Positions 21,712 through 54,825 of a DNA stretch of 64,000 bases are shown here, piece by piece. Location: contig NZ_QAJM01000001.1 of the NCBI RefSeq assembly GCF_003852405.1, positions 62,001 through 126,000 on the forward strand, given 5' to 3'. Position 1 is the first letter of the stretch. Every line of letters starts with the position of its first letter. The translations under genes and the position numbers were made by a program. A model generated the notes under the pieces. It did not search any database. It was not told the origin of the DNA and worked only from the letters and a program-made list of their open reading frames with translations. The stretch is from Pseudomonas sp. KBW05 (lineage in GTDB: Bacteria > Pseudomonadota > Gammaproteobacteria > Pseudomonadales > Pseudomonadaceae).

Positions 21712-21743
21712 AGCCGCAAGCTTGAAGCTTCAAGCTTGCGGCT
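21712..21743. terminator. 32-base perfect palindrome, probable bidirectional terminator/repeat
   Basis: Sixteen-base arms beginning AGCCGCAAGCTTG fold into a loop-free perfect inverted repeat between two convergent stops (21706 and 21750). AAGCTT/CAAGCTT palindromes of this kind recur between convergent genes in pseudomonads. There is no strong T tract. Confidence 0.6.
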
Positions 21744-42265: not shown

Positions 42266-45200
42266 GCGGAAAGATCCCCCCACTGGTAGCGCTTAACGTC
42301 ATTTTCATCGTAAACCTTGCCGCCACGGTTATTGATGGTCTGGCGACCACCGCCACCAGTCGCGCTATTCAACTCGAACTCACCGGTGACGAAGTTGATC
42401 ATCAGCCCCATCCTCCCGGGAACGTAGTTTTCCGACTGGATGCTCTGGGTCAGCTTTGCCACACCGATTGAAGCGTCCTGAATGAACGCCGAGTTCATGA
42501 ACACCTGCCCGCCCTGCACCACAAACGGCGTGGTGATCGCCCCGCCAGCAATGGTGTTCACCACCGCAAACCGATCAGCACTCACCACGAACTGGCTTTG
42601 CAGTAAGCCGTCGGCGTTCTGCTCGATGCCCAGGCCGATCCCCGCTGCCACGTACTGGCCGTTGGCGTTGACCTGCATCTTCACCGCCCACATTGTGGAC
42701 AGCTTGCCGTCGATGTCTGCTGTAGCCCTGGCCGTGACCTGGATCGACGCCTTGTTCTTCCAGTCGTTGATGGCACTGGCCAGGTCGCCCTCATCCGAGC
42801 CGTCACGATCACCGCCGGCGATGGCTTCAATCGTGGTGGACTGGGATGCGATCGACTTGTTGGTATCAGCAAGCGACTGGGTGACGGTCTGGACGGCTGC
42901 CGAGTTGGTATCGACGTTGCTCTTAAGCTGGTCGATACGCTCAGTAGTTGCCAGCTTGTCGGTGGCCACCACCTGCTCCAGCGTGGTCAGTGCAGCCTTG
43001 TTGGCCCCCACCGCCGCATCCAGCGACGTAGTGCGCTCAACCATTGCCCGGTTGTCGGAAGCCTGTACCTTCACCTGCTGCGCAAACTTGGCGGTGGCGT
43101 CCCAACTTTTCACCGCGTCGGCAAGGTCACCCTCCCCGTCATTCTCGCGCCAGCTTGCCTGGAGCGATTGCAGCGCCGAGGCGTTCGCTGTGACCTTGCC
43201 GTCCACGGTTTCGATTGAAGTCTTGTTCTGCTGGATCTGGAGTGCCATGGCCTGGGTTGTTTGGGCAATGGTGCCCATGTTGAACCAGTACTCGACAGCG
43301 GGCGGCGGGGTATCCACCGGTACCGCCTTGAGTGCCTGCCACAGGTTCTGCCCCGTGCGAACAATCTGCCCGGTGGTGTAGGTCTTGGTCGGAACGTAGA
43401 CCAGGGCGTCCGTTACGTGGTCGATCAGGTCTTCCAGTTCCTGCTTGGCTTGCTCCAAACGATCATTGACCGAGCCCGGACCGGAGCCGGAGATCAGCTC
43501 GATCTCCTCAAGCAGCTCCTTGCCCAATTCGGATTCGCCAATCTGGCCGGCGATCATCTCCAGAATCGGCGCAGCATTCGCGCTGGCCTGCCCCGGTACA
43601 CCATTGACCACCGGATAGAACGGGCCGACGTTGCCGGTGCGGTCCACCAGGCGCGCCCAGAAGAAGAACTGCGCACCGGCCTTGAGGGCCTGCATGCTGT
43701 GGTTCGCCTGGGGGTAGGCCAAGTCGGCAAGCTTGGTGGCCACTGACAGGTCATTGGCTGGGCCGTACCACAGCTCGGTCCGCTGGGTGTCCTCGGCACC
43801 GGGCGGGAAAGCCCACCGGATGCCGATGCCGAACAATTCGCTGGTGGTGGTCAGGGACGCAACCGCAGGCGGCAGGCCCACCTTCCCTTCCAGATTGGTC
43901 AGGTTGGAGCTCTTCCAGATCGACGAAATTTCAAAGGCGCTCACCGAGCGAACCCGGGCCAGATAGGCGCCAGAGTAGATGCCGGTGAGGTCCACGCTCG
44001 TCGAACCAGTGCGCTGCAGCTTGATCCAGTTGCCGCTGTCCTTGCGCCACTCCACGTCATAGGCGATCGCACCCGAAACAGCAGGCCACGAGATGTTCAT
44101 GGTGCTGATTGCCAGGCCTTGGTCCACGGAGTAGTTCGAGGTGATGCTAACGCTCGCCGGCGCCGGAACCACGGTGATGGGTACAACACTGATCGGACGA
44201 TCCTCCAGGCGCGCGCCGGTATCGATGTGATCGAACTTGCTCGGGTCGTACTGCACGGCCGAGATCTCGAACACGCCGGCTTCCGGCCGGGCCACGCTCA
44301 CCACGCGGTAAAGCGGGATGGCCAGGTCGTCTGCATCCAGCGCCCACACCAGTTCGCGCTCAGGCGGGACGGAGTAGGCCAGGGTTACGGTGACTTGCCG
44401 GCCGCTGACCAGTTGCACGGTGCGGCCCTCGCACTTGCCATCGGGCAAGTTGAGGATTAGCCGGTCGCCAGGCTTGGCCTGGGTGTCGCGGTCCAGGGTG
44501 ATGACCTTGCCATTCACCGCCGAGATGCGTCCGCCCACAGAACGGCCGGCCAGCAGTTCGTCAGCAATAGGGATCACGTAGCCGGGCAGCGGGATACGCC
44601 CGTCGAGGCCGACCTTGAAAGTGACGGCGCGGTCTTTGGAGTTCGTGAGCAGCGCCCACTTACCGCGGCGCTGCGCCTCCGACTCACGGGTGCAGCCGAT
44701 GGCGCTGATCTCCAGCGGGTTGTCGCCGTAGCGCCGCTGGAGCTTCGAATCCGTGACCGCCGTGACATCGGTGTCGTAGTTGTTGGCCGGGTTGTCGTAG
44801 CTGATCAATGCCCGGGTGTATCGCGTGCGCTCCGAGGCGCTGGAGTAGGTGAACTTGCCGTCGATCACGTTCGCCCTGGTATAGGCGAAGTCGAAGTCGG
44901 TGGCGCGCGGCATGTCCGCCAGCGTGAAGACCTGGCCCTGCGCCCAGTAGGTCATGCCACGGTAGATCGCCGAGATATCGCGCAGCAGCGACCAAGCGTC
45001 AGCCTTGCTCTGCAGGTTCAAGTTGCAGAGGAAGCGCGGTTCCATGCCGCCTTTTCCGTCCGGCACCAATTGGTCGCAGTATTGGGAAATACGATACAAC
45101 TCCCAAATATCAACCATCCACGGCTTGATGCGACGGCCCAAGCCGAAGCGGTCGGCGGTGGTGATGTCGTAAGTCATCCAGACAGCATTGTCAGTCCATG

Positions 45201-46091: not shown

Positions 46092-46691
46092 CTACATCTG
46101 GTCTTCGGCGTATATCGCGGCGCTAATAATCGCGCCGCCGACCCTGCGCTTGCCGTAGCAGAGCGGGACCGGGTTGCCGGATGCAGTTGTGTTCTGCGCC
46201 GAGCCAAATGCATATCCAGGCTGGTTTTCGGGCGCAGCGCTCATCTTGAGGCCTGCCGCCTGCGGACTAAGCATTTGGATTACGCCCCCAGCAGCACTAC
46301 CGATACCGCCCGCTATGAGGGCTGCGCCTGTAGTTGTTGTCGACCCGAACGCAAAAAAACCTACCACAATCAATATGGCACCCAAAATGGTCTGCATCAG
46401 GCCTGCGCGCTTTCGGCCCGTAATTACCGGCGCTATACGGATTTCTCCGGAACCGCCAAATCCTAATTCTTTTTCTTCAAGATTTTTTGACCCTCGAAAC
46501 ACGGCAAACTCAATGCCGCGAGACTTGGCGTTCGACAGGAACCGCTCGAAGCCAGGGATCTGTACGCATAGTGCCTTGATAGCCTCGGCTGGGGACTTAA
46601 CTGACAACCTGAAAGATCTTCCAAATTGCCTAAGCTGCCCATAAAGCAAGATGGTAGTCATCGGCTGATAATTAATTGCGAGTGCTGACAT
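46092..46691 (-). CDS. Tail assembly protein I
   Basis: 199-residue lambda gpI-like protein from the ATG at 46691 (MSALAINYQP). Family features: LYGQLRQFGRSFRLSVKSPAEAIKAL opening and a hydrophobic central segment (QTILGAILIVVGFFAFGS with a glycine-rich GGIGSAAGGVIQML). The tail ends GSAQNTTASGNPVPLCYGKRRVGGAIISA. In lambda, I is directly between K and J; here K is 6.6 kb upstream. Confidence 0.88.
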   Translation of the reverse strand: MSALAINYQPMTTILLYGQLRQFGRSFRLSVKSPAEAIKALCVQIPGFERFLSNAKSRGIEFAVFRGSKNLEEKELGFGGSGEIRIAPVITGRKRAGLMQTILGAILIVVGFFAFGSTTTTGAALIAGGIGSAAGGVIQMLSPQAAGLKMSAAPENQPGYAFGSAQNTTASGNPVPLCYGKRRVGGAIISAAIYAEDQM

Positions 46692-47197: not shown

Positions 47198-47214
47198 AGC
47201 CCGCAATGCGGGCT
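47198..47214 (-). terminator. Hairpin closing the three-hairpin element
   Basis: Minus strand: AGCCCGC-ATT-GCGGGCT, seven base pairs, followed by TTCGTGTT. The T tract is weak, so termination may be partial. Confidence 0.6.
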
Positions 47215-47235
47215 ATATCAATCGAAAACTTCTAA

Positions 47236-47510
47236 CACTGCAATGCCTCCTCCAAGAAGAGACATTACGCTGTTATCAGCCCATACCAAATCAAACCACA
47301 CCCCGCCGGACCTAGCCGCGACTTGCCGGACCAGAACCTGCCAGCGGCTTCTGCCACCGCAATGCCGACTGATTCCAATCGGCATTACGCTGTTGTCAGC
47401 CCTCACCTCGACATGCCCGACCTAACCAGGCCTCGCCCAACCTTGTCTCGCCACGCCACATGATGCGTTCGCACCGCAATGCCCTCTCATAGAAAGGACA
47501 TTACTCTGCT
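47236..47510 (-). ncRNA. Candidate structured 3'-UTR RNA: three hairpins separated by pentamer-periodic tracts
   Basis: Read on the minus strand from the stop codon at 47509. Hairpin A (47502-47478), a 60-base tract (47460-47401), hairpin B (47386-47361), a 65-base tract (47345-47281) and hairpin C (47266-47242). Each stem begins AATG and ends CATT, pairs over 10-11 base pairs including wobbles, and has differing inner sequence. Flanks of B and C are near identical (GCTGAYAACAGCGT before, GCRGTG after). The tracts repeat NGGNN every five bases, which rules out ordinary coding. No known family recognised. Confidence 0.55.
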
Positions 47511-47970
47511 ATTGACCAAGAGCCTTTCGGGTCATGCCCTGGAGCGCGGAAAACTTTGCTACAGCGTCAAGGTTTGCACGTCGCTGATCATCGGTAAGCT
47601 CCGTTATCCTCAGATTCCTCAGCTTTTCTCCACTCCCGCGAAACGCCTTCCGGACATTCCGGCCCAGCTCACTTACCGCAACTTCTGTCTGCTCATGAGG
47701 CGGCACCCAGCGGTAACCACGGCCGCGCACAGACTGAAGGCAGACCTGATGATGCTTGAGCAAGTCCGATTTAAATGCCTCCACGTTCGCAAGCCATTCG
47801 AACTGACGCTCACGAAACTTCTCAACGGTCAGCGACTTCGAGTCAGTCATGGAAGGCATTCCGAAACGCGCCTCCAACCACTCATGCCCGACCAGATCGC
47901 CGTATTTGAATTCCTTGAGGAAGTCATCAACAGCTTGCTTGTAGCTTGGGTGCTTTGTCAGTTCAGACAT
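47509..47970 (-). CDS. Phage protein of the immI-like operon, 153 aa, unknown
   Basis: Start at 47970 (MSELTKHPSY), overlapping the end of the 191-aa gene by eight bases. Features: a GDLVGHEWLEARFGMP helix-turn pattern, VEAFKSDLLKHHQVCLQSVRGRGYRWVPPHEQ (wing-like strand pair, as in small phage winged-helix proteins) and a helical tail (LTDDQRRANLDAVAKFSALQ). DNA binding is plausible, not shown. It is the last gene before the hairpin element. Confidence 0.7.
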   Translation of the reverse strand: MSELTKHPSYKQAVDDFLKEFKYGDLVGHEWLEARFGMPSMTDSKSLTVEKFRERQFEWLANVEAFKSDLLKHHQVCLQSVRGRGYRWVPPHEQTEVAVSELGRNVRKAFRGSGEKLRNLRITELTDDQRRANLDAVAKFSALQGMTRKALGQ

Positions 47971-48538
47971 ATGCCACCTCGAAACGACCGAAGCGCGGCC
48001 GGTATTCACAGACGCCAATCAACAGTCCTGAGTCGGTGATCGCCTTTTTTGCTTCCTCTATGTTGAGTACGTCAGCGTTGATCGCGACTTCCAGCTCGAC
48101 GCCCCATTCAAGAAAGATTGGCCGGTAACGCATGATCTTCGCCTGCCCAACCTTAACCCCGCGACAATCAACGAATCGCTGATCCTCCCAAAGAGAATCG
48201 GGAGTTGTCGGCCCAGAGAACTCCAGCTTTGCCTTGTCAGTCATTACGACCGCTCCGCGCTTCCATTGCGTGCCCAGCTTCTGAAGCTTCGCGCCAGCCA
48301 GGAACGTCGCATCGAAGTTAGCGCCGGGTACAAAGAATCCGAGCTTTTCATCGTGGTAAGCGCCGGCGATAAATTCAGAGCGAGCGATGGCAAGATGATC
48401 GTCGTCCGTCTTCTTGCGCTTTCCGGTCAATTCCTTATGAGCCTTTGTTGCGGGATTCAAAGGGTTGGCCAGCTTGTCGCTGTGCATCATCAGCGGAGAC
48501 GTGCCGGTAATTTTTAGCGTGACAAGTTCCATGCTCAT
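47963..48538 (-). CDS. Phage protein, 191 aa, RAMP-like motifs, unknown
   Basis: Starts inside the Bro-N stop (ATGA overlap). The first strand reads MELVTLKITGTSPLMMHS, followed by a lysine-rich loop, then FFVPGANFDATFLAGAKL (residues 69-85), IMRYRPIFLEWGVELEV and a glycine-arginine ending GVCEYRPRFGRFEV (175-188). No named family recalled. The layout (T-x-SPL opening, PG-x-N/S-F insertion, G-x-x-x-R-x-RFGRF end) resembles the ferredoxin-like RAMP fold of Cas7/Csm3. That likeness is inference from motif shape. Confidence 0.7.
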   Translation of the reverse strand: MSMELVTLKITGTSPLMMHSDKLANPLNPATKAHKELTGKRKKTDDDHLAIARSEFIAGAYHDEKLGFFVPGANFDATFLAGAKLQKLGTQWKRGAVVMTDKAKLEFSGPTTPDSLWEDQRFVDCRGVKVGQAKIMRYRPIFLEWGVELEVAINADVLNIEEAKKAITDSGLLIGVCEYRPRFGRFEVAYV

Positions 48539-49398
48539 GCTGCGTCCCTCCGAGCAGCCTGGAAAAGAAATCGGCAGCGCAGATTTTCAGTAGCAAGCGC
48601 CACAAACTCAAACATTTCCGCTGTGGAGACTGGCATATCCCTGTCCACAAGCATCGACTGCATGAACTGCTGCCGGGTCAAAACGAACGCACCCATTGGC
48701 ACGGGCGTGACCTGCCGATTGCCGTGATGGTCGGCGCTGACGAGATATCGCTCACACTCTCCAAGTTTGTCGGGGATATCGAAGGACTTGCCCTGCCCCT
48801 TCGGAATGAACTCACCTTCCAGGACGGCGTAGGCCGCGATGAAGTTGCACGCCGACTCGAACTGGCTTGCAGGTATCAGCTCAAGGCGCGGCACGTTGAA
48901 ACGCGTGTGCACTGCTGAATAAATACGCGCGGAAGCACTGCGCTGAATGGATGCTGGAAGATGTGCCACTTTGTGGCGCGCCAAGCCTTTCAGGGCATTC
49001 GTCTCGGTCATGTCGACCAGGTCATCCATCAGCGTCTTCATTCTATTGCTGGAGTCTTGGTAGCTGCCCTGCTTGCGAATCGCCGGAAGGACTTCAGCAG
49101 TCACCCACTTCTTGAAGCGCTTGGCTTCAGCCTTGCGGCTGCGCAGGATGGCCGAGTAAAGGCCGGATTCGTTTATGACCAGCATTTCTTGGTCGCCGCC
49201 AGGGGTACGCACAATCTGCGTACCCTTTTCGTCTTCGTCCAAGTTTCGAGTCATGTCACCAGCAATACGGTACTCCAGGGCGGACGACACATCTGCCGCC
49301 ACGAACCACGGCTGATCATCAATCAGCAGGGTCCGCACCTGTTGCTTGCCGAACTTGAAGGGGATGACATTGGATGTGGCTGTGCTAATATCGCTCAT
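48535..49398 (-). CDS. Bro-N family antirepressor
   Basis: 287 residues from the ATG at 49398. The N-terminal Bro-N domain (about 15-113) has VRTLLIDDQPWFVAADVSSALEY, LDEDEKGTQIVRTPGGDQEMLVINESGLYSAILRSRKAEAKRFKKWVTAEVLPAIRKQGSY, the standard antirepressor pattern. The C-terminal part (about 120-280) is unrelated to KilA-C. It is third from the operator after the small RHH gene, as ant follows arc in P22. Expected role: neutralise a phage repressor. Confidence 0.85.
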   Translation of the reverse strand: MSDISTATSNVIPFKFGKQQVRTLLIDDQPWFVAADVSSALEYRIAGDMTRNLDEDEKGTQIVRTPGGDQEMLVINESGLYSAILRSRKAEAKRFKKWVTAEVLPAIRKQGSYQDSSNRMKTLMDDLVDMTETNALKGLARHKVAHLPASIQRSASARIYSAVHTRFNVPRLELIPASQFESACNFIAAYAVLEGEFIPKGQGKSFDIPDKLGECERYLVSADHHGNRQVTPVPMGAFVLTRQQFMQSMLVDRDMPVSTAEMFEFVALATENLRCRFLFQAARRDAA

Positions 49399-49435
49399 GA
49401 CGTTTTTCCTAGTAGATTGACGTTCTGCTTCACAG

Positions 49436-49466
49436 GCCTCAAGCGTTGGCGCGCTTGGGGCTTTTT
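49436..49466 (+). terminator. Hairpin with T5 on the plus strand
   Basis: GCCTCAAGCG and CGCTTGGGGC pair over ten positions (one wobble), followed by TTTTT. It overlaps the end of the minus-strand RHH gene. No plus-strand gene ends here, so it may serve an antisense transcript or be part of a minus-strand attenuator. Confidence 0.4.
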
Positions 49467-49618
49467 CATGCCTGTTCATTTTTCGCTTTTCCCTTGGCTT
49501 GCTGAATAATCTCAACCAGTTGCGCGTTCATCGAGCGGTTCTGCTCGCGCGCCTGCTGTTTCAACCATTCCATCAGCTCACCAGGGAATCTAACCTGCGT
49601 TCTTGCTAGATCGCTCAT
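49466..49618 (-). CDS. Arc-like ribbon-helix-helix repressor, 50 aa
   Basis: Short gene starting at 49618 behind TAAGGAGGGG (about three to five bases from the ATG). Sequence runs MSDLARTQVRFPGELMEWL then KQQAREQNRSMNAQLVEII and a basic tail. The TQVRFP strand and R-S-M-N-A-Q-L-V-E helix are the Arc/Mnt pattern (compare Arc FNLRWP and GRSVNSEI). It is first in an operon with the Bro-N gene 67 bases downstream, exactly as arc precedes ant in P22. Confidence 0.82.
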   Translation of the reverse strand: MSDLARTQVRFPGELMEWLKQQAREQNRSMNAQLVEIIQQAKGKAKNEQA

Positions 49619-49628
49619 AACCCCTCCT

Positions 49629-49681
49629 TAGTGACACGCAGTCACTATACAGCCGATATTTCACAGTGACAAGATAGTGAC
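49629..49681. promoter_or_regulatory. Operator region with four AGTGAC half-sites
   Basis: Inverted pair TAGTGAC-ACGCA-GTCACTA (49629-49647) and a direct pair AGTGAC / AGTGAC at 49665-49670 and 49676-49681, spaced 11 bases apart. They cover the whole gap between the divergent RHH genes. Hexamers one helical turn apart are typical for cooperative RHH dimers. Confidence 0.72.
49644..49672 (-). promoter_or_regulatory. Sigma-70-like promoter for the RHH-antirepressor operon
   Basis: On the minus strand TTGTCA (-35, at 49672-49667) and TATAGT (-10, at 49649-49644) with a 17-base spacer. Both elements lie within AGTGAC half-sites, so RHH binding would block it. Confidence 0.7.
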
Positions 49682-50071
49682 ATGGAAGAAATTTATAGAT
49701 CTCAATTCCGCCTCCCCTACTCTCTTTATGAGCAGTTGAAGGCTTCCGCTGACAAGAATCGCCGCTCAGTGAACGCGGAGCTAATCGCGCGCCTGGAGCA
49801 AAGTTTTGAGGTTCAGCAACAAGATGCTGAGGATTCCCCTCGATTTAAGATCGATGGAGACGCCTTTAATCTTGGGAAATATGAGCCTGGGGCTGACGCA
49901 GTGAAATTTGCAGGCGGTCCGGCAGCCGAAAAGGAAAACTCCTTTATGGCGAGTTTGCTAGAACTGATTAATGAGTATCGCCCCGCAGAGCTCAAAACGT
50001 TGCCGCCCGATAACGCAAAACCCAAACCTAATACGGGGCCAGAGCCCCGCAAGCGCTACCCGAAGAAGTGA
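49682..50071 (+). CDS. Arc/Mnt-like ribbon-helix-helix protein, 129 aa
   Basis: N-terminal RHH (SQFRLPYSLYEQLKASADKNRRSVNAELIARLEQSF, residues 7-42) followed by an 85-residue acidic/proline-rich extension unlike Arc. It is divergent from the small RHH gene across the AGTGAC operator, taking the place of mnt in P22 immI. The ATG at 49682 directly follows the last half-site; no ribosome site is visible, so leaderless translation is possible. Confidence 0.82.
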   Translation: MEEIYRSQFRLPYSLYEQLKASADKNRRSVNAELIARLEQSFEVQQQDAEDSPRFKIDGDAFNLGKYEPGADAVKFAGGPAAEKENSFMASLLELINEYRPAELKTLPPDNAKPKPNTGPEPRKRYPKK

Positions 50072-54072: not shown

Positions 54073-54825
54073 TCAGCTCCGGGCAATGAGTGAAACGGCG
54101 GGGAATCCACCGAAGGCCAATTCGTTGTTCTCGCCAAACCGCAGCTTGCAGGACGACAGACAGCCCTTACACTGATCCTTCGACGGATCGTCCGTTGGGT
54201 TGTCCTCGTCGTCGAACATCACCGCGCCGGTGTAACCGCAGTCCGGCCCCCGGTAGCCATTGGTCATGGCCCAGTGGCAGAACGTGGTCATCTGCCGGCC
54301 CGGCAGCCCGTGGTTATCGATCTCGCCCGGGGAAGACAGCTCCCACACCACCGCCTCACCGTCCTCGCTGGTCTTCTGGTCGATGAACCAGATTTCCAGC
54401 GCTTCCTGGGTCGGATTCGCCGTTGGGTTCCCCTCCGGGAAGTTCGCCGCATCCAGGTACTGGACCAGGGTCTCTCGAACCGTCAGCTTGAACTTGAGCA
54501 TGTCCTCGAACGCCAGGCACAACGCCGTGACGCGCCCGTTGATGTTGCCGGCGGCGAAGGTCGGGCGTGAGGCGGTGCCGTCGCTGCTGGAGGAAATGCC
54601 CTCGATCTGCACCGGCCAGGCAGCGTATTCCTCGCCCTGCCACCAAATCGACTTGGCCGGCAGGTCCTCTTCCGAGTGTTCGTAGGCCATCAGCTCTTCC
54701 GGCGTGTGCGGAATCGCGTGCCCGTGGAAGCGCAGGTAATCGGCGCCGTACTCGGTCCCGTCGATTTCAAACAGGCGAATCTCGCCGCCGGGCTCCAGTT
54801 TCTGGATGTCCGTGATCAGTGCCAT
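54073..54825 (-). CDS. Tail tip protein L (Fe-S type)
   Basis: 250 residues, opening LITDIQKLEPGGEIRLFEIDGT as in lambda-type L proteins. Late cysteines C183, C196, C219, C222 and C226 (TFCHWA, GPDCGYTG, DQCKGCLSSCKLRFG) fit the [4Fe-4S] site of lambda L. The tail GGFPAVSLIARS is also typical. Part of the distal tail hub between M and K. Confidence 0.9.
   Translation of the reverse strand: MALITDIQKLEPGGEIRLFEIDGTEYGADYLRFHGHAIPHTPEELMAYEHSEEDLPAKSIWWQGEEYAAWPVQIEGISSSSDGTASRPTFAAGNINGRVTALCLAFEDMLKFKLTVRETLVQYLDAANFPEGNPTANPTQEALEIWFIDQKTSEDGEAVVWELSSPGEIDNHGLPGRQMTTFCHWAMTNGYRGPDCGYTGAVMFDDEDNPTDDPSKDQCKGCLSSCKLRFGENNELAFGGFPAVSLIARS

Follow-up and report, generated by a model that had tools for sequence, protein, structure and literature searches.

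A probable VIPR locus in a lambda-like Pseudomonas prophage, with predicted guides against tail genes J and I of competing phages

What kind of element lies on the minus strand of this lambda-like Pseudomonas prophage, 3' of the gene for a 153-aa protein, where three hairpins are set apart by two tracts with a 5-nt period and a terminator-like hairpin comes last? The original prediction, made from the window (the whole 64,000-nt stretch of DNA that was analysed), described a structured noncoding RNA array after an operon and knew of no named element with this plan. The three hairpins and two periodic spacers are present at that place, the array is supported, and the plan does have a name. We read the array and the two genes upstream of it as a Viral Interference Programmable Repeat (VIPR) system, at a probability of roughly 85%. 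VIPR is a known kind of system, and this prophage adds one more member, with two named likely targets.

VIPR is an RNA-guided system that was described in 2026 and proposed to predate CRISPR (preprint PMC13142463). It pairs a protein of the RAMP family (Vipr) and an accessory protein (vap) with vrRNAs that consist of 9-16 GGY/NN units and carry a structured tail; the work was done on phage SUSP1 and on a prophage of P. fulva, and the systems are grouped in seven types by Vipr phylogeny (PMC13142463). In the published model, vrRNAs of ~100 nt are bound by Vipr, and base pairing of their NN dinucleotides with DNA passes over one base between each dinucleotide and the next (PMC13142463). A literature search by the system name found no description beyond this preprint.

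The features of the locus are collected in Table 1. On the minus strand, the pentamer unit of the tracts reads GGYNN, a near-fixed GGY followed by a variable NN; neither this split nor the two mini-hairpins of each tract had been listed in the original prediction. The NN series of vrRNA-1 is GT GA AA TG GA CT TA CG AT GA GA, that of vrRNA-2 is AG CT CC AA GC TA CC GG GT TT TT AT, and each tract is followed by GG and a 3' mini-hairpin (GCTG-AYAA-CAGC). The paired stems had been put at 10-11 pairs and turned out a little longer (13, 14, and 13 with G-U allowed), while the starts of hairpins A-C are spaced 116 and 120 nt, for an earlier estimate of about 117-120. The 315-nt array region folds with a z of -7.6, and 0 of 100 shuffles folded as well. 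The suggested autocorrelation check bore out the periodicity: lag-5 identity of the two tracts, with a few flanking bases included, was 0.47 and 0.48 compared to a shuffled mean of 0.30, and 0 and 4 of 10,000 dinucleotide shuffles reached these values. When both strands of the window were scanned with an 11-unit GGY pattern, the top 14 start positions all fell in or at the edge of the two tracts. The expected terminator-like hairpin was found at the array end as a consensus match, such sites numbering 9 in the 3.4 kb scanned, where 4.0 were expected. We rejected coding in the array because the period is 5 nt and the hairpins covary, and the earlier statement that a period of 5 excludes coding was right in effect. 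A tRNA scan of the window found none. Further hairpins of 12-15 pairs were seen outside the array, at window positions 21729 and 54991.

Table 1. Features of the predicted VIPR locus and related sites in the window
Feature	Position	Strand	Description
Terminator-like hairpin	47198..47214	-	ends array; consensus match only
Hairpin C	47240-47268	-	13 pairs (G-U allowed); 3' tail of vrRNA-2
3' mini-hairpin of vrRNA-2	47269..47280	-	GCTG-ATAA-CAGC
vrRNA-2 guide tract	47281..47342	-	12 GGY/NN units
5' mini-hairpin of vrRNA-2	47343..47358	-	GGTGGC-AGAA-GCCGCT
Hairpin B	47359..47388	-	14 pairs (G-U allowed); 3' tail of vrRNA-1, inferred processing site
3' mini-hairpin of vrRNA-1	47389..47400	-	GCTG-ACAA-CAGC
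vrRNA-1 guide tract	47401..47457	-	11 GGY/NN units
5' mini-hairpin of vrRNA-1	47462..47475	-	GGTGC-GAAC-GCATC
Hairpin A	47476-47504	-	13 pairs (G-U allowed); precedes first guide
vap	47509..47970	-	153-aa accessory protein, phrog_5926
vipr	47963..48538	-	191-aa RAMP-family protein, phrog_4652
Antirepressor (BRO-N)	48535..49515	-	upstream of vipr, same direction
Arc-like DNA-binding protein	49466..49618	-	first gene of presumed operon
Promoter-like TTGTCA-17-TATAGT	49644..49672	-	consensus match only
Own J site, homologous to vrRNA-1 target	45088..45114	-	VDIWELYRI, Leu as TTG
Own I site, homologous to vrRNA-2 target	46200..46226	-	NQPGYAFGS, Ser as TCG
Site in own vipr for L048 vrRNA-1	48420..48451	-	predicted, 1 mismatch of 22

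The Vipr protein (191 aa) matches PDB entry 36pp_D, 'SUSP1 Vipr protein', with an E of 6.9e-46 (phmmer), and its AlphaFold2 model has a pLDDT of 94.2. Foldseek with this model gave 749 rows (E up to 10), and the best 50 were all titled as CRISPR complexes or Cas proteins, mostly of the Csm3 type, with a best E of 2.1e-4 and a TM to the model of 0.30-0.56. The locus is identified as VIPR because Vipr matches 36pp_D and its model finds CRISPR RAMP structures; judged by sequence and modelled fold, Vipr is a relative of the CRISPR RAMP proteins. The 42% identity to the SUSP1 protein, together with the locus plan, suggests type II. Other VIPR features present here are vap beside vipr, tracts of 11 and 12 units, and a conserved structured 3' tail. 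In Pfam and NCBIfam scans, vipr and vap had no family above cut-off, and vap had a sub-threshold LytM_N match only (E 0.079). The families phrog_4652 and phrog_5926 adjoin in Pseudomonas phages Medea1 and LESphi2, Citrobacter phage Moogle, and Escherichia phage SUSP2; Gordonia phage MakoManhole has the same gene pair with a more diverged partner, and GGYNN tracts were observed in noncoding DNA near vipr-vap in all of these phages. The vap homologues align at 21-58% identity, and the one in the Gordonia phage is annotated as 'DNA binding protein'. A CRISPR-Cas array was considered and rejected, given that the hairpin units differ in sequence and that no Cas family of Pfam was hit among the 7 neighbouring proteins scanned.

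The Arc-like gene, the antirepressor gene, vipr, vap, and the array would form one operon and one transcript. The promoter-like site in Table 1 is one of 3 such sites in the scan, with 1.9 expected. A second Arc-like gene, at 49682-50071 on the plus strand, is divergent from the first (49466-49618, minus strand), with the promoter-like site between them. Because two divergent Arc-like genes flank this site, an Arc/antirepressor switch that resembles immI may control the VIPR operon.

Pattern-limited protein searches for relatives yielded 23 loci from the species genome collection and, from viral contigs, the best 80 of 166. A Vipr match was found in 4 of 399 Pseudomonas genomes, the source genome of the window included. 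Of 112 loci, 106 have GGY/NN tracts on the vipr strand and 2 have them on the opposite strand, a count that leaves aside L007, the window's own copy, which is not oriented and has tracts too. The six loci with no tract are L002 (entered via the antirepressor), L027 and L029 (both distant), L033, L093, and L094, with L033 and L094 ending close to vipr. Across 130 clean unique tracts, position 1 was G in 97%, position 2 was G in 72%, position 3 was a pyrimidine in 97%, and positions 4 and 5 were mixed; 123 of these tracts had 9-16 units and 7 had 17-22. The last NN was AT in 79 of the 130, so the tail-proximal NN is probably not informative.

As the original prediction had proposed, covariation was examined, and the hairpin stems were found to be kept by compensatory change across homologous prophages. 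The alignment comprised 72 unique units out of 76, taken from a list of selected loci, and it also served to predict the structure. Over the 14 pairs, 975 of 998 cells in the inter-tract hairpins were paired (97.7%), and two-sided changes were observed in 11 of the 14 pairs (212 cells). Slid controls were 29-52% paired, and column shuffles had a mean of 72%. Loci L015-L034, L072, L074, L075, L077-L085, L087, and most above L092 are absent from this list. Because the stems covary across the clade, we regard hairpins A-C as real RNA structure, and the transcript is presumably cut at them. The units differ in hairpin sequence, with no identical repeats. A 5' mini-hairpin stem of 5 or more was present in 61 of 66 clade units (6 of the 72 were too short), compared to 12.6% of shuffles, and 131 of 155 unique units had GG with a perfect 4-bp tetraloop hairpin where the tract ends. 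At L012, L043, and L047, the first tract follows the upstream gene with no obvious hairpin A.

The published gapped code was evaluated with 150 unique guides from the window, L001, L008-L014, L031-L092, L105, and L112. These guides are not independent, some being common to near relatives, and at a skip of 1 their best hits with 0, 1, and 2 mismatches numbered 9, 19, and 20 in 3.61 Mb of DNA, a chosen set rich in VIPR flanks and window-like J genes. The corresponding counts were 0, 0, and 3 at a skip of 0, and 0, 0, and 7 at a skip of 2, while five sets with shuffled NN order gave 0, 0.8, and 4.6 per set. A smaller scan of 2.44 Mb gave 9, 17, and 22 at a skip of 1, compared to 0, 0, 3; 0, 0, 5; and 0, 2, 3 in the controls. 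Skips of 0 and 2 were rejected, having few low-mismatch hits relative to a skip of 1; a skip of 3, tried with the window's guides only, scored high at the arrays themselves and at close relatives. At the level of sequence, these results support the published code on DNA gathered without the discoverers' target data, and the locus serves as an independent check of it.

The skipped base was the third codon position for 19 of 21 guides with a single open frame, among 48 guides checked for codon phase (15 others were ambiguous and 12 had no open frame). By best BLAST hit of any open frame, the 48 guides with at most 2 mismatches were assigned to tape measure (13), J (6), L (4), vipr (3), Arc (2), I (1), antirepressor (1), and hyp22 (1), with 17 unassigned; because the searched DNA is biased and assignment was by best BLAST hit, this census is no estimate of frequency. 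The I assignment of L048_2 has an internal stop. The single guide of L035 (4496-4576), which this census placed under J, in fact fits gene I of rival phages in frame at its last codons, with 2 mismatches of 24, a second I target besides that of vrRNA-2.

The two guides of the window are predicted to recognise the tail genes J (tail tip) and I (tail assembly) of competing phages, which names two late tail genes as likely natural VIPR targets. The 9-unit core of vrRNA-1 fits the J codons VDKWELYRI and is perfect at 106 of 130 J sites, and the guide as a whole reaches 20-21 of 24 in most J sites. The core of vrRNA-2 fits the antisense of the gene I codons NTPGYAFGS and is perfect at 97 of 109 I sites, with 20 of 24 at 97 places in gene I. 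These sites were found by a loose peptide motif in 265 sources and are counted by locus, some loci being copies of one record; the J motif was fitted by all 110 loci L115-L224, and many of the VIPR loci as collected include no J site. For J and I alike, the skip falls on the wobble position of the codon, as in the published code so far as sequence can tell, and both matches are specific to the 1-nt skip. Counting against these targets, the last two NN of vrRNA-1 (GA GA) match no listed J site, and the best targets of vrRNA-2 have 3 mismatches of 22. Elsewhere in the clade, guides match the tape measure, tail L, Arc, and antirepressor genes and the vipr of rivals. Other VIPR guides are in turn predicted to hit the window phage: vrRNA-1 of L048 (Table 1) and a guide of L064, which fits the window's tail gene L at 54356-54381 (1 mismatch of 18).

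The array could be a VIPR array and J and I still not be functional targets, if conserved codons explain the matches and the true targets are lysis-lysogeny regulators or satellites outside the DNA searched. Such regulators are the main targets in the P. fulva clade, where 36 vrRNAs fall on one prophage locus (PMC13142463), and both the bias of the searched DNA and the unmatched terminal NN of vrRNA-1 fit this account. We nevertheless consider it improbable: two guides of one array hit neighbouring genes of one phage family, shuffled codes rarely match as well as these skip-specific hits, and the arrays of L045, L059, and L063 bring a different J guide for the same codons. Hardly credible, in our judgement, is the earlier suggestion of a put-like antitermination RNA, or of any other cis-acting transcription element. 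Several strong hairpins in a phage transcript would suit it, but the array is placed 3' of the operon instead of in an early leader and ends in a terminator-like hairpin, its variable dinucleotides match target genes in trans, and tracts are linked to vipr in 106 of 112 loci. An Rfam scan of the window at the gathering score gave 0 matches (the put family may not be in Rfam). The other two roles that had been suggested, a protein-binding array and a small RNA cut from the 3' UTR, both come close to the VIPR model (PMC13142463).

If J and I are the targets, the carrier's own copies of these genes become relevant. The window's own J mismatches its own guide at only 2 of 18 core bases, which counts against its escape, and its own I at 4 of 18. 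Among 57 distinct J-site alleles, 50 encode VDKWELYRI and the other 7 occur in VIPR-bearing records only; of the alleles from outside VIPR records, 48 of 48 are VDKWELYRI. The J core was fitted with 0 or 1 mismatch of 18 by 8 of 301 tracts (next best 4 of 14), and the own J is altered in 8 of 8 of the corresponding loci. Mismatches to the own guide (of 18) number 2 in the window, L008, L031, and L034, 3 in L032 and L063, and 4 in L045 and L059, while most other J sites have 0 or 1 mismatch to these guides. Five of the eight loci, those of window type, are one lineage. The altered J forms vary among guide carriers (VDIWELYR, VDKWSLYQI, VDKWSLYEI). Six VIPR loci have a J site and lack a guide for it. 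The ordinary J is found in L001, L035, L060, and L064 (one array being common to L001 and L060). In L048 and L055, J is altered, by 2 bases and 1 base respectively, with no J guide in the array seen, which counts against a link between guide and alteration.

The I guide is present in 5 of 301 tracts, and the own I is altered in all five loci, as ENQPGYAFGS in four and ENQPSYAFGS in L032, where gene I is diverged as a whole. Counting against, L035, L063, and L126 carry the ENQPGYAFGS form with no I guide of the vrRNA-2 type; the L126 genome lies outside the 4 that have a Vipr hit, and common descent with the window-type lineage may account for the J and I alleles of L063. The own gene L of L064 mismatches the L064 guide at 3 positions, compared to 0-2 in the 20 other motif-fitting loci (9 distinct alleles). 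For the vipr site, the mismatch count against the own guide is 7 in L048, the highest among 43 loci, and 4 in L052, with 33 of the 42 others lower, 8 equal, and 1 higher. None of 24 own homologous sites has fewer than 3 mismatches to the own guide, a result that is uninformative for variable genes.

We tentatively propose, at slightly under even odds, that VIPR phages alter codon positions 1 and 2 of their own targeted sites as a self mark. The changes would be amino-acid replacements or switches from one box to the other of a six-fold codon set (for example Leu CTN to TTG and Ser AGC to TCG). Since the VIPR cassette adjoins the altered I and J, the cassette and the immune alleles would form a poison-antidote-like haplotype that recombination could not split without self-targeting. 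This offers a concrete, testable rule for how VIPR phages avoid hitting themselves; a self/non-self rule by altered own sites was not found in the main text of PMC13142463. Somewhat less probable, to our minds, is that the altered J and I are simply inherited alleles of some phage lineages and that self-protection was not selected. The altered sites are indeed common to close relatives, and the I form occurs with no guide in the three loci named above. Own changes are also not significantly concentrated in the J target, with 2 of 16 differing codons falling in the 9-codon target within a 221-codon J fragment (hypergeometric p 0.13); of the own changes seen in at most 2% of homologues, 1 of 1 lies in the target (p 0.04). 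Because this within-gene test is not significant, the claim of self-protection rests on the comparison between loci. There, the altered J forms differ from one guide carrier to another, altered J alleles are confined to VIPR-bearing records, four VIPR loci with no J guide keep the ordinary J, and the same tendency is seen in gene L (L064) and in vipr (L048, L052). From this we infer that the own-site changes were selected for self-protection.

Under the VIPR reading, cutting of the transcript at hairpins A-C would release two vrRNAs, each about 117-119 nt long. Each GGY/NN tract would be coated by Vipr subunits, with the NN pairs staying free to read DNA and passing over one base from pair to pair. 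In a cell shared with a related rival phage, vrRNA-1 would be directed to conserved codons of gene J and vrRNA-2 to those of gene I, the wobble base being skipped in each. Vipr with its vrRNAs would bind there and block the late tail operon; few infectious rival particles would therefore be made. The carrier would be spared by the differences in its own J and I, which fall on codon positions 1 and 2. Complex formation, DNA binding, and repression at J and I are expected here by analogy with PMC13142463. The gain would lie in competition among co-induced or co-infecting phages, since blocking late genes would hardly save the cell. In PMC10884400, a resident prophage protein is reported to interfere with the virion assembly pathway of invading phages; the likeness is that a resident prophage spoils the virion assembly of invaders, although a protein acts in that case and an RNA-guided block of tail gene expression is proposed here.

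Like class 1 CRISPR-Cas with its RAMP complexes (Csm3/Cas7), the locus combines a RAMP fold with guides separated by hairpins, but its array lacks identical repeats and has a 5-nt period and a gapped code. It shares with the P. fulva prophage and SUSP1 systems, which are type II in PMC13142463, Vipr, vap, and structured-tail vrRNAs built of 9-16 GGY/NN units, as well as being phage-encoded with 1-nt-skip targets in rival phages (here predicted from sequence). It differs from them in having two vrRNAs, downstream only, in its predicted targets in tail genes I and J with its own I and J altered, and in that the hairpin plan of the array was worked out by covariation. Layouts vary among the relatives. 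LESphi2 (prophage 2 of P. aeruginosa LESB58; L003 3086-3411) has three tracts upstream of vipr and not downstream. Nine closely packed or overlapping GGY/NN tracts follow a distant vipr relative in a Dokdonella MAG contig (L030 2260-2836), a layout perhaps like the 'staggered arrays' of PMC13142463. Tracts of about 26 units, beyond the published 9-16, were observed at L021 4023-4153 and L015 5695-5825 and may be fused tracts.
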